From a virus: a DNA stretch of 32,428 nt. Where the stretch lies: positions 1-32,428 of IMG/VR virus record IMGVR_UViG_3300035664_000049, one strand, 5' to 3'. The position numbers and the translations under genes were made by a program. Positions 27,516 to 32,428 of the stretch are shown one piece after another (the stretch's first letter is position 1; each line of letters opens with the position of its first letter). The notes below the pieces were generated by a model. The model was not told where the DNA came from, did no database searches, and saw only the letters and a program-made list of their open reading frames with translations.

Positions 27516-27583
27516 GTGTCTCCCCCGACTAGTCATCGGGATGGCCCCGCCCACAGCGTTAAAACTGTGAGCGGGGTTTTTTT
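27516..27583 (+). ncRNA. Candidate small RNA complementary to early-gene RBS leaders
   Basis: Between the promoter and a strong terminator lies about 65 nt without an ORF. It contains a 5' single-stranded GTGTCTCC (27516-27523), a hairpin (CCCGA 27524-27528, TCGGG 27536-27540) and the terminator. The 5' end is complementary to GGAGACAC, which lies directly before at least four early genes (starts 30848, 31211, 31574, 31832), so base-pairing there would block ribosomes. Alternatively the segment is a leftover leader module seen from the other strand, because GGAGACACAA is present in minus orientation with no ORF behind it. Confidence 0.45.
27545..27583 (+). terminator. Strong rho-independent terminator (+ strand)
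   Basis: CCCCGC (27545-27550) and CACAG (27552-27556) pair with CTGTG (27565-27569) and GCGGGG (27571-27576), with one mismatch and an 8-nt loop, followed by seven Ts (27577-27583). The T-run exists only in the + direction. Its last bases overlap the stop codon of the minus gene at 27582. Confidence 0.85.
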
Positions 27584-29156: not shown

Positions 29157-29194
29157 TTTGTCTCCTTTTGTTTTGGGCTTTTGCCCCATTGAGT

Positions 29195-29226
29195 TGCCAG
29201 TATACTTTGGCTGTGTACTGGCACAA
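29195..29226 (-). promoter_or_regulatory. bet promoter with overlapping inverted-repeat operator
   Basis: Read on the minus strand, TTGTGC (29221-29226) and TATACT (29199-29204) are spaced by 16 nt, giving a start near 29192. The inverted repeat TGCCAGTA (29195-29202) and TACTGGCA (29216-29223) overlaps both boxes, an arrangement typical of repressor control. TGGCTGTGTACTGGCA (29208-29223) recurs with one change at 31903-31918 by the HTH gene. Confidence 0.65.
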
Positions 29227-29348
29227 GGGGTATTCTCACTTTTCCGAATTTTAAAACGAAAAAACCTAAAAAATTTTTGATGGGACTATGGAAAAAACAG
29301 GTTGGTTTCCGTGAATTTGCAAACTGCCTTTGACCTGCTACGCAATAA

Positions 29349-29376
29349 TTGCATAGCACTATGCAAAGTTTGCATA
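29349..29376. promoter_or_regulatory. TTGCATA palindrome cluster
   Basis: TTGCATA (29349-29355), GCAC and TATGCAA (29360-29366) form a perfect interrupted palindrome, and TTGCATA recurs at 29370-29376. This could be an operator pair or an iteron-type element. Confidence 0.5.
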
Positions 29377-29429
29377 GGTGAACACAAACGGCGTTTTGCC
29401 ATGCATAAAGCATGCCAAGTCTAGCCCGG

Positions 29430-29444
29430 TAGGTGATTCACCTA
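29430..29444. promoter_or_regulatory. 15-bp palindrome TAGGTGA-T-TCACCTA
   Basis: TAGGTGA (29430-29436) and TCACCTA (29438-29444) form a perfect palindrome around one base. The half-site TAGGTGA also occurs at 29374-29380. It is a plausible operator; the protein bound is not known. Confidence 0.5.
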
Positions 29445-29515
29445 GTGATACACGTTCGTTGTAGCAGGTTTAACCTACGCCATATTGATCTCCTTTATCC
29501 TGCTAGCCTTGCCGC

Positions 29516-29914
29516 TTACGGTAGGAAGTTGAGGCTTGGCCCTTGCATGGGTTGACCTAACGCATCGTTCGGCAGGATTGATGTCACCGTGCGCTTATAG
29601 GTGTGGTTGGGATCTCCTAAGCTCTTCCTTAGCCAGTCCGTAGACTCCCTTTCGGTTGTCACCACGCTATAACCCGTACCCCAGGGACCGGCATAACGCC
29701 CTTGCGGTATCGGTATCGCAGGTCCAAATGGGGGTGCGACAGGCACAATTGGAGCAGCGTACGGGTCAACGTACGGATCAACGTAAGGATTGACAGCGCC
29801 AAGCCTACCAAGACTGCCAACACCGTTAGCGGCAAGGTATGCCGCTGCGCTTTGCGCTTGAGCATGCGCACTGCTAGCGCAAGCAAGTAATATAGTCAGT
29901 GTAATGAATCGCAT
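29516..29914 (-). CDS. Exported Pro-rich small protein
   Basis: A 132-aa protein from the ATG at 29914, with GGAGAT 7 nt before; a longer frame from 29953 runs through the leader element and is unlikely. Residues 1-19 (MRFITLTILLACASSAHAQ) are a Sec signal peptide with AHA cleavage. A tandem PYVDPYVDPY and Pro-rich stretch follow, then a small C-terminal domain (about 75-132). It is probably periplasmic or outer-membrane acting. Function is unknown; an exclusion or host-envelope role is a guess. Expression would be tied to the leader element upstream. Confidence 0.6.
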   Translation of the reverse strand: MRFITLTILLACASSAHAQAQSAAAYLAANGVGSLGRLGAVNPYVDPYVDPYAAPIVPVAPPFGPAIPIPQGRYAGPWGTGYSVVTTERESTDWLRKSLGDPNHTYKRTVTSILPNDALGQPMQGPSLNFLP

Positions 29915-29933: not shown

Positions 29934-29988
29934 ATCGGCACCATGCCGACCATGCACGCCCCCTCAAGAGCGTGGCTGGTCTACACGG
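29934..29988 (-). promoter_or_regulatory. 55-nt leader RNA element, copy 1
   Basis: On the minus strand this leader would fold as GACCA (29981-29977) with TGGTC (29952-29948), an internal loop, CACGC (29974-29970) with GCGTG (29959-29955) and a 10-nt G-rich loop. A second small GGCA/TGCC hairpin ends 19 nt before the start codon of the exported protein (29914). The same 55 nt recurs at 30199-30253 with three changes. Confidence 0.65.
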
Positions 29989-30181
29989 GCAAGATACGGA
30001 TGCGATTGTTTCGTACCTTAAAAATACTGTGTGCGCCGTCGCGGTGTTCTACAATTAATGTGCACGCGCCCCTACCTCTTGCCCATTCTTTTAACGTTTT
30101 TATACTGGCAAAATTGCAGGAATCAAACACGAGTCCTTGCGAGTTGCGTAACAACGCATGATACTTGGCAGTTATTAACAT
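29981..30181 (-). CDS. Small unknown early protein
   Basis: A 66-aa basic protein with the early RBS leader (GGAGACATATATG). It contains FDSCNFASIKTLKEWARGRGACTLIVEHRDGAHSIFKV, which looks like a compact alpha/beta domain, but I do not recognise a family. It sits between the two copies of the leader element: copy 2 lies upstream of its start, and its stop overlaps the base of copy 1 by 8 bp. Confidence 0.6.
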   Translation of the reverse strand: MLITAKYHALLRNSQGLVFDSCNFASIKTLKEWARGRGACTLIVEHRDGAHSIFKVRNNRIRILPV

Positions 30182-30198
30182 ATATGTCTCCTAGTCAG

Positions 30199-30253
30199 AT
30201 CGGCACCATGCCGACCATGCACACCCCCTCAAGGGTGTGGCTGGTCTACACGG
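30199..30253 (-). promoter_or_regulatory. 55-nt leader RNA element, copy 2
   Basis: Differs from copy 1 at three positions (30223, 30234, 30236). Two of these form one base pair, and the change there is compensatory: G-C (29958 with 29971) becomes A-T (30223 with 30236), so the inner stem CACAC/GTGTG is kept. The third change adds a possible C-G pair. It ends 17 nt before the ATG at 30181. Confidence 0.65.
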
Positions 30254-30365: not shown

Positions 30366-30848
30366 TTAATAAATGCTGTCGCGCAAATGATCACAAACGC
30401 TATCCGGCGGGTACGAATTCCGACCTGAAAACATTGACAGCCCATTTTCCCGACACAATTCCATCCTTTCGCGCAACGACAATTCTTGCCAGAACGTTTC
30501 TATCGCTGTCATTTGCCGTTCTGTATAATCATCCTCATTAAATATGGGGTAATCATTGAGTGCTTGCACTATTGATACACACCGATCTAATAGTTGCGTG
30601 GGAGCATTCTCAGCAACCATTAAGTATTCAATCCACCCGCATGCCCAATGACGGTGACGGACAATGCTAACGTGTTCGCTCTCTCCGCCAAGGTGTTTCA
30701 AAATGCACTCCCAATTGCTTTCGCACAGAATAAAACTGTCCCTGTTTTTAGTGATAATGACGTAGCCGTTCGGAATTGTTCCTGCAAAATTGCTAGCACT
30801 ATCAAATGAGGTTGGATGTTCCCAGCGCTGTAGTATTGTCTGTGTCAT
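30366..30848 (-). CDS. Unknown conserved early protein
   Basis: A 160-aa protein. The segment IVRHRHWACGWIEYLMVAENAPTQLLDRCVSIVQALNDYPIFNEDDYTE matches from memory a conserved family in phage early regions whose function is unknown. It has no catalytic motif I recognise. It carries the shared leader AGGAGACACAACGATG. Confidence 0.7.
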   Translation of the reverse strand: MTQTILQRWEHPTSFDSASNFAGTIPNGYVIITKNRDSFILCESNWECILKHLGGESEHVSIVRHRHWACGWIEYLMVAENAPTQLLDRCVSIVQALNDYPIFNEDDYTERQMTAIETFWQELSLRERMELCRENGLSMFSGRNSYPPDSVCDHLRDSIY

Positions 30849-30863
30849 CGTTGTGTCTCCTTG

Positions 30864-31211
30864 CTAATCGTTAGTTGTTAGTGTGCTGACTGTTTCGTGT
30901 AATTTAATGAGGCGCTTTTCAAGTGTTGCGAAGCAATTGTGAAGCATATCCTCGTAATTATCGCCGGAAGTAACAAAATCCTTTTCGCTATCATACGAAC
31001 ATCCATCCAGATACTCGGATTCGCTGATCCCCTCAAACGTGACTTTTACGCGGATACAGCACCATGCCCATTCGTTCCATTCTGCCTTTTCCACGATCTC
31101 GGCAATGTCACGCGCATCATCAAAACAATCTTTGGGGTGAATGTGCTCAGGCTCACACGAAACTTTTACGGTTGCGTGCTCGCGCAGAAAGTCATTTAGT
31201 TTAGTTGTCAT
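30864..31211 (-). CDS. Unknown conserved early protein
   Basis: A 115-aa acidic protein. The core (WNEWAWCCIRVKVTFEGISESEYLDGCSYDSEKDFV) is familiar from early regions of other phages, but the function is not established. Its ATG follows the shared leader GGAGACACAATCATG. It lies between two similar small unknown genes in one left-going unit. Confidence 0.7.
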   Translation of the reverse strand: MTTKLNDFLREHATVKVSCEPEHIHPKDCFDDARDIAEIVEKAEWNEWAWCCIRVKVTFEGISESEYLDGCSYDSEKDFVTSGDNYEDMLHNCFATLEKRLIKLHETVSTLTTND

Positions 31212-31244
31212 GATTGTGTCTCCTAGTCTTAGTTAATTAGTTGG

Positions 31245-31574
31245 TTACAGTACGTTTGTTGCTAGGTAGCCGTGATTAGCAAACCATTTCTCAATGAGCC
31301 CAGCATCTAGATCGCGAGCTTGATCGTAGTTAAAACGCTCGCTCATGATAGCGCAAAGGTTGGAGTTAAATTTGTCGTAACCTCCACCCCCACGCGACGC
31401 GCGCATTTCTGTATCGCTTGCTAGCGAACCCGAGTAAATCCAGGCTTGCGTAGTACACGTACCGGCATCTGAAAAGTTGCTGATAATTTTCCCAGCAATT
31501 TCTTTAGTTGCTGCATCTTGCAGTACCCAGACAGATACAGACTGGCAATGCTTTAGTTGAGTTACTGGTTTCAT
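31245..31574 (-). CDS. Unknown early protein
   Basis: A 109-aa protein. It starts with VTQLKHCQSVSVWVLQDAATKEIAGKIISNF and ends RFNYDQARDLDAGLIEKWFANHGY. No family is recognised. It carries the leader GGAGACACAATCATG, identical in its core to the one before the next gene downstream. Confidence 0.6.
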   Translation of the reverse strand: MKPVTQLKHCQSVSVWVLQDAATKEIAGKIISNFSDAGTCTTQAWIYSGSLASDTEMRASRGGGGYDKFNSNLCAIMSERFNYDQARDLDAGLIEKWFANHGYLATNVL

Positions 31575-31607
31575 GATTGTGTCTCCCTAGTCTTAGTCGG
31601 TTAATCG

Positions 31608-31832
31608 TTAAACCCACATTCCGTCGTATTTCAGTATTGCTACCGCATCCCCCAAAGCATCTTCTTCACGTAATCGGTAAATCATTGTGTCCGTAGTAAA
31701 TAATAGAACGCCGTTATCTCTGTATTCAATTTTACCAACGTAAGTGCATGGTTCGTCGGACCAGTAACAAGCCACGGCTTTAATTGTCGCCTTGCACTGC
31801 TTAGCATCTTTTTTCGTATAAGTAGTTTTCAT
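31608..31832 (-). CDS. Small unknown early protein, first of the left-going operon
   Basis: A 74-aa protein, mostly beta in outlook (VGKIEYRDNGVLLFTTDTMIYRL). No family is recognised. It is the first gene of the left-going block, next to the control region at 31833-31985, and has GGAGACACACCTATG before its start. Confidence 0.6.
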   Translation of the reverse strand: MKTTYTKKDAKQCKATIKAVACYWSDEPCTYVGKIEYRDNGVLLFTTDTMIYRLREEDALGDAVAILKYDGMWV

Positions 31833-31985
31833 AGGTGTGTCTCCTGTTGTTAGTTACTCGGCTAGTCAGTGCCGAATGATCCTAGTATGGCAGAAGGGAG
31901 AGTGGCTGTATACTGGCAAATGGATTTATTTTCTGGTGTATGAGATGGCAGTGGCTTATAGCGTAAGATCGTGCACACTGTAGGA
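31833..31985. promoter_or_regulatory. Divergent control region with operator motif
   Basis: This spacer separates the left-going early genes from the right-going HTH gene. TGGCTGTATACTGGCA (31903-31918) repeats, with one change, the sequence in the bet promoter operator (29208-29223); the GTATACTGGCA core (31908-31918) also matches the other arm of that operator in reverse. Promoter boxes are not clear, though TATACT at 31909-31914 could be a + strand -10. The HTH protein is the natural candidate to bind this motif. Confidence 0.55.
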
Positions 31986-32255
31986 ATGACACAAGGTAAG
32001 GCGAGAAAGCCCCTCACAGCTCGCAGGTTGCGACAGGATAGGCGATATGCTGGTGTGCTATATAAGCTGGTGCGTGCAAGGCTTGGGCTCACACAGGAGC
32101 GCATGGGCGATTTGCTGGGGTGTAGTAGGTTCGGCATACTGCATCGTGAGCGCACTAAGCAGTTATATAGTTTGCAAGAGCTGGTAGCATTGCAGGAGCT
32201 TACAGGAATCCCCGATGCTGACTGGTGGGACATTATCAAAGAGGTAGCTAAGTAG
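31986..32255 (+). CDS. Cro/CI-type HTH regulator (putative)
   Basis: An 89-aa basic protein from the ATG at 31986; a GTG at 31971 is an alternative. The segment LYKLVRARLGLTQERMGDLLGCSRFGILHRERTKQLYSLQELVALQEL is a Cro/C1-type helix-turn-helix with a recognition helix at about CSRFGILHRER. It is short, with no dimerisation/cleavage domain, so it behaves more like Cro than CI. It is divergent from the early operon and would read into the late genes across the junction. It probably controls the 31903 and bet operators. Confidence 0.7.
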   Translation: MTQGKARKPLTARRLRQDRRYAGVLYKLVRARLGLTQERMGDLLGCSRFGILHRERTKQLYSLQELVALQELTGIPDADWWDIIKEVAK

Positions 32256-32265
32256 CTGATATACT

Positions 32266-32428
32266 TACATGCCACACCCCAACCCCATGATATCGCTAGC
32301 TTTATCTTACTTTACGAGAACAAGATAACTAGTGAAGTATAACATATTGATTATATTTATTTTCTTGGCCGTCCCCTGCCGCTCCCCAGCAGGATGTATA
32401 TGTTAGGTGCTAAGGGGTTGAATGTATT
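32266..32428. repeat. Right copy of 163-bp terminal direct repeat
   Basis: Matches 1-163 except for two positions (32280 and 32301, both C/T). The last 127 bp are identical to 37-163. With the left copy it closes the map; the non-redundant length is about 32,265 bp. Confidence 0.9.

Follow-up and report, generated by a model that had tools for sequence, protein, structure and literature searches.

In leader-peptide attenuators of the ermC kind, a short ORF lies upstream of alternative pairings that exclude one another, one of which masks the Shine-Dalgarno (SD) sequence. The element described here, a 55-nt sequence among the early genes of an uncultivated phage, likewise has a short upstream ORF and exclusive pairings, one of them SD masking, but differs in that this pairing is missing in four of nine versions and that the ORF resembles a membrane segment. 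A different parallel is offered by the early-gene boundaries of phage T7 that were folded here, which we take to be the RNase III sites R0.3, R0.5, R1, R1.1, and R1.3. Like these, the element forms one irregular hairpin of ~45 to 50 nt between early cistrons, shortly before the next start codon, and its anatomy resembles that of the T7 boundaries as folded, with their 9- to 12-bp upper stem and internal loop(s). The sequences are unrelated, however, and the element has a small internal loop plus a mismatch, whereas T7 has a large asymmetric loop; moreover, T7 sites lie at several early-operon boundaries, while the element occurs once per genome, or twice in two genomes.

The start-associated and extended start-associated sequences (SAS/ESAS) of cluster K mycobacteriophages are short repeats, some with inverted repeats, before the starts of unrelated nonstructural genes; the departures seen in the two ESAS arms give no support to RNA pairing, and DNA binding was the authors' preference (PMC3203893). 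The element resembles them in its position directly before the start codons of unrelated genes, but it keeps its pairing on the transcribed strand and is unrelated in sequence; by inspection, the 13-bp GGGATAGGAGCCC and the 17-bp inverted repeats of SAS/ESAS are absent from it. Conserved boundary sequences between phage modules have also been discussed (PMC3029335). Such boundaries are comparable in being short shared sequences at a mosaic junction, here duplicated around an inserted gene, and the element differs in having an RNA fold that appears to be under selection. HK022 put RNA is likewise a structured RNA in an early operon, but the element shows no two stable adjacent hairpins in its predicted folds, no clear downstream terminator, and no sequence match in the segment searched. 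Little literature was found on T7, put, and phage early-operon hairpins. Compared with these systems, the element appears to belong with structured intercistronic phage RNAs, a known kind, and its function is putative.

Results

Two copies of the element in a probably near-complete phage record

The window, meaning the whole stretch of DNA analyzed, corresponds to a virus record 32,428 bases long. Its ends are direct repeats (1-163 and 32266-32428; 161 of 163 positions match), and because they are near-identical over 163 nt, the record is probably close to complete; the terminal repeats suggest that the genome is almost complete or else circularly permuted. The rightward genes include those for terminase, portal, and the major head protein, and the leftward genes include those for a RecT-type annealing protein and a RusA-type resolvase. 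Adjoining the leftward operon is a divergent gene (31971-32255) with a weak helix-turn-helix match, a probable repressor gene as judged from sequence. The element and its neighbors are as follows.

29934-29988, minus strand: element copy 1, made up of the hairpin and a tail of 7 nt (UGCCGAU), 55 nt in all, preceding the 132-aa secreted-type gene
30199-30253, minus strand: element copy 2, 55 nt, starting directly after the stop of the 29-codon ORF and preceding the 66-aa gene
29516-29914, minus strand: 132-aa gene whose product appears to have a signal sequence at its N terminus; in most relatives it is the gene that follows the single element
29981-30181, minus strand: 66-aa gene between the copies, with a homolog only in contig 3300010885_021610
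30254-30343, minus strand: 29-codon ORF MTNETLQEAIGATLLIVLAYPLAILLFAL with a single hydrophobic segment, a homolog of which lies directly upstream in every relative

The two copies constitute direct repeat D2 (55 nt, 95% identical, three differences). Copy 1 lies 19 nt from the ATG at 29914 and copy 2 lies 17 nt from the ATG at 30181, on the minus strand, which reproduces the positions and spacing given in a first-pass annotation of this DNA. The stop codon of the 66-aa gene (UAG, 29981-29983) falls inside copy 1. A pattern of the two stems plus loop occurs twice in the window, at the two copies, and not once in 100 shuffles. Folding energies are −29.3 and −30.8 kcal/mol for copies 1 and 2 (z scores of −3.4 and −4.1 against dinucleotide shuffles), and in a scan of 12,950 segments of 55 nt from both strands of the record, the two copies fall within the six most stable.

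The most stable hairpin of the record is at 27524-27578 and reads CCCCGCCCACAG...CTGTGAGCGGGG followed by TTTTTTT on the plus strand. By these features, it is a strong intrinsic terminator for rightward transcripts; it has a close match in contig G017 and was missed by a consensus terminator scan.

Predicted fold

Minimum-energy prediction gave a single imperfect hairpin of 48 nt as the best fold, in the order CCGUGU, A, GACCA, a 2-nt internal loop, an 8-bp upper stem, the loop, and a complementary side ending in GCAUGG. The first-pass annotation had described an inner stem and an outer GACCA/UGGUC stem; the latter is present, but as part of this one hairpin, and the earlier fold was incomplete in that it left out the pairing of CCGUGU with GCAUGG beneath the GACCA/UGGUC stem. 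The structural parts and their alternatives are listed below.

29948-29981, minus strand: main hairpin (hp1) of copy 1, with the GACCA/UGGUC stem and a 2x2 internal loop GC/CA
30213-30246, minus strand: main hairpin (hp1) of copy 2, as the copy 1 stem but with CACACCCU/GGGGUGUG
29941-29946, minus strand: 3' strand GCAUGG of the copy 1 lower stem (P1), whose 5' strand CCGUGU is at 29983-29988
29937-29947, minus strand: alternative 3' hairpin (hp2) of copy 1, GGC-AUGGU-GCC, mutually exclusive with P1
29925-29938, minus strand: hairpin CCGAU-UCAC-AUCGG, copy 1 only, overlapping the SD sequence (CGGAG)

The upper stem of hp1 in copy 1 is CACGCUCU/GGGGCGUG (8 bp) with the loop UGAG. Between the copies, one pair changes from G-C to A-U, so that both sides change together and pairing is kept, as had been proposed earlier. 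These account for two of the three differences, as had also been said, but the third likewise lies in the stem (U·G to C-G), with pairing again kept.

P1 dominates the predicted folds, with hp2 at ≤0.09 in free RNA. When the first 12 nt are masked, hp2 forms at 0.62 to 1.00 in six of the nine versions found among related phages (see below) and at <0.2 in the other three. The SD-masking hairpin is in the minimum-energy fold of five of the nine. Behind the stem there is no U tract, and UGCCGAU comes next; an intrinsic terminator was ruled out on this ground, and the element is not among the scanned terminator sites. A CsrA/RsmA-type site was dropped by inspection, the loop being without a conserved GGA.

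Homologs and flanking genes

Searches of IMG/VR with DNA patterns and proteins located the element in related uncultivated phages, on eight contigs if the window is counted, with nine distinct sequences: copies 1 and 2 of the window; copies 1 and 2 of L032 (3300010885_021610); the single-copy versions of L034 (3300042938_001360) and L064 (3300043449_000702); those of L076/L038 (3300025896_000168) and L060/L007 (3300010370_004392); and that of L035, which also stands for L031 and L036, with the same element (L031 is identical to L035 over 1,604 nt and was counted with it). Three matches of the first viral pattern were unrelated coding sequence. Model R1, built from the nine versions, scores 66 to 85 bits on each. 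The genomes with two elements are those of the window and L032.

About 18 more distant relatives of the recT or secreted-type genes gave no convincing R1 match, and the low-scoring loci L085, L084, and L009 were rejected, the upper stem being missing or its pairs broken. Rfam returned no match at the gathering score, and a permissive search gave chance-level matches alone. None of 30 pattern matches in bacterial genomes was accepted as a relative; the top match, preselected by pattern and scored with R1, lay inside long ORFs, was good only in its 3' part, and was taken as chance. Among named phages, the early region matched nothing but a few chance-like pieces, and no T7 site was matched by R1 beyond chance (best match, E = 0.41).

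The element had been read as a leader of two early genes. Its constant neighbor proved instead to be the upstream ORF of 28 to 32 codons, while the downstream gene differs. This ORF has a hydrophobic segment, an invariant VLAYP, and an invariant C-terminal FAL, and it looks like one encoding a membrane peptide; the peptide has no Pfam match. The element starts 0 to 3 nt past the ORF stop codon in every contig whose junction was read, and a search with the peptide alone returned seven loci, all in element-bearing contigs. In most relatives the element is followed by the secreted-type gene; in two phages the 66-aa gene comes next, and L007 has an unrelated gene there, so that at least three unrelated genes have the element before their start codons. 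The ORF-element unit of L038 comes first behind the divergent repressor region.

Several early genes, also in L032, have in common an extended start-site leader (e.g., AACTAAGACTAGGAGACACAATC-ATG). These leaders are longer than an SD sequence and are reminiscent of start-associated sequences.

30185-30196, 30843-30861, 31206-31235, 31569-31597, and 31823-31856, minus strand: extended start-site leaders

Selection on RNA structure

Across the nine sequences, 116 of the 117 hp1 stem cells (99.3%) form standard pairs on the transcribed strand, which leaves one cell unpaired. Unpaired substitutions in the stems, which the first-pass annotation had named as grounds for refutation, are confined to this one cell. 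The opposite strand pairs 102 of 117 cells and folds ~4 to 10 kcal/mol less stably; pairing is poorer there because the G·U pairs of the transcript become A·C. Pair 11-42 is C-G in seven versions and U-A in two, and pair 19-34 is G-C, G-U, or A-U. Two hp1 pairs and one hp2 pair are changed on both sides among these nine sequences, a set of modest depth; the hp2 pair (G-C to A-U) covaries in L060 only. Seven of the 13 stem pairs are invariant and hence uninformative, and P1 is an invariant core carrying no covariation information. Shuffled 3' letters reached the observed covariation in 1 of 500 cases, a figure that relatedness can inflate. Random placement, over the stem columns, of stem changes equal in number and type breaks 8.1 cells on average versus 1 observed (P = 0.015), under a simple model that lends moderate statistical support.

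The apical loop varies (UGAG, UAAG, UUC, AUGGUU), while the helix length is constant. Because loops of 3, 4, and 6 nt occur, a plus-strand coding frame, which the first-pass annotation had named as another possible source of the conservation, would be broken, and a frame on either strand is excluded. Although noncoding, the element is 70 to 96% identical between phages versus 53 to 85% for the neighboring small ORF, in a comparison that leaves out the recombinant pair L076/L060 (ORF, 100%; element, 86%). The hairpin base (CGUGUAGA, GCAUG) is invariant in sequence, and the 2x2 internal loop is kept with an invariant A39, part of the loop being variable.

Because related phages keep the fold while the letters change, the element is very probably a conserved cis-acting structured RNA, a working part of the mRNA. 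The selection on RNA structure first proposed from two copies is borne out by nine versions that keep the stem, by two doubly changed pairs, and by strand specificity. Ligand binding, also proposed then, and recognition through the loop are disfavored by the variation of the apical loop in sequence and length; a protein may nevertheless bind the stem.

Duplication and gene insertion

The window and L032 correspond to the single-copy arrangement of L034 to which a second element and the 66-aa gene have been added. Copy 2 with its ORF aligns to the ORF-element stretch of L034, and copy 1 with the secreted-type gene aligns to the stretch from the L034 element to its secreted-type gene. By this alignment, the duplication is a local event common to two phages and tied to insertion of the 66-aa gene. 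A 160-nt block covering the ORF and the element is 97.5% identical in L038 and L007; the similarity breaks off within the element, and beyond that point L007 carries other genes. Therefore, the L034 versus window/L032 arrangements and the L038/L007 block together indicate two independent insertions at the element.

Discussion

Our preferred reading, held tentatively at a probability of roughly 0.4, is that of an intercistronic cis-acting hairpin for processing or decoupling, by analogy with the T7 early RNase III sites. On this view, the leftward early mRNA of a small group of related phages would contain the element as a cis-acting structured RNA, its hairpin placed directly behind the small-ORF stop and ~20 nt before the next start codon. 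The leftward transcript would run through it as one mRNA; the hairpin would then act as a double-stranded barrier, probably as an RNase III cleavage site, and part the upstream cistron from the next. The upstream 3' end may thereby be protected by the hairpin, and the downstream ribosome-binding site presented on its own, with an effect on stability or translation. Processing or decoupling fits the place of the element, past the stop codon of one cistron and ahead of the start of the next, and recognition as double-stranded RNA is favored because the loop is variable while the helix is constant. Counting against a T7-type reading is the single element per genome, compared with one T7 site at each of several early boundaries. 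Furthermore, the invariance of the hairpin base exceeds what an RNase III site needs, of which limited divergence could explain part.

The exclusive pairings could alternatively serve as a translation switch, the main alternative, which we regard as possible but unlikely. P1, hp2, and the SD-masking CCGAU:AUCGGAG pairing exclude one another, and termination at the small ORF would be coupled to the next initiation: a ribosome at the stop would cover CCGUGU, hp2 would form, and the ribosome-binding site would be freed. The tight spacing of 0 to 3 nt from stop to element in all contigs agrees with this, as do SD masking in the minimum-energy fold of five versions, formation of hp2 in six of nine once the first 12 nt are masked, and the covarying hp2 pair. 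However, that covariation comes from one sequence, hp2 stays below 0.2 in three versions, and the SD-masking hairpin, missing in four of nine, never covaries. Masking the first 12 nt barely shifts SD accessibility in four of the five SD-masking versions (e.g., 0.39 to 0.41), and the predicted value in L064 rises just from 0.26 to 0.40. An extended form, in which a switch made of the hydrophobic leader peptide of 28 to 32 codons and the exclusive pairings is carried with cassettes and controls any inserted early gene, would be improbable. An operator at which an RNA-binding protein of phage or host origin represses or activates the downstream gene is rather unlikely: the invariant hairpin base, the kept 2x2 loop with A39, and the placement before start codons would suit one, but the apical loop is variable, as is part of the internal loop, no RNA-binding protein emerged as a candidate, and the downstream genes are unrelated, hence there is no common regulated gene.

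Persistence of the element as shared homology where recombination inserts genes, that is, as a cassette-exchange boundary, is distinctly unlikely as the explanation, even though the window/L032 and L038/L007 junctions and a phage-encoded RecT-type annealing protein point toward it. It leaves the strand-specific G·U pairing and the compensatory changes unexplained, and since the locus has no gap other than the ORF-element junction, insertions would land in it anyway; besides, such a boundary is compatible with an RNA function and is not an alternative to it. That the repeat arose by chance and was kept without function by recent common descent is quite improbable. The few homologs and the seven uninformative pairs would allow it, but the element is more conserved than adjacent coding DNA, its pairing is strand specific, and it covaries. 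Least credible, and highly improbable, is a put-like antiterminator RNA of the phage HK022 type acting on RNA polymerase. The ORF and element of L038 do come first behind the divergent repressor region, and hp1 followed directly by hp2 would make two adjacent hairpins; yet P1 and not hp2 is dominant in the predicted folds, the two weak terminator-like minus-strand sites before recT are not above the count in shuffles, and the HK022 segment that was searched, from which the put sites may be missing, gave no R1 match.

Whichever mechanism applies, the element adds to the early operon of uncultivated phages a covariation-supported structured RNA that is absent from Rfam and tied to a conserved tiny ORF for a putative membrane peptide, and it offers a case of a structured element duplicated together with an inserted gene. 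If it acts on whatever gene follows, it would illustrate how newly gained phage genes can be placed under an RNA control that is already in place.

A conserved noncoding stretch (29190-29515) lies between recT and the secreted-type gene; it carries repeats of the ATGCAAA/TTTGCAT kind and an inverted repeat, TGCCAGTATAC...GTGTACTGGCA, and is possibly an operator or a replication origin.
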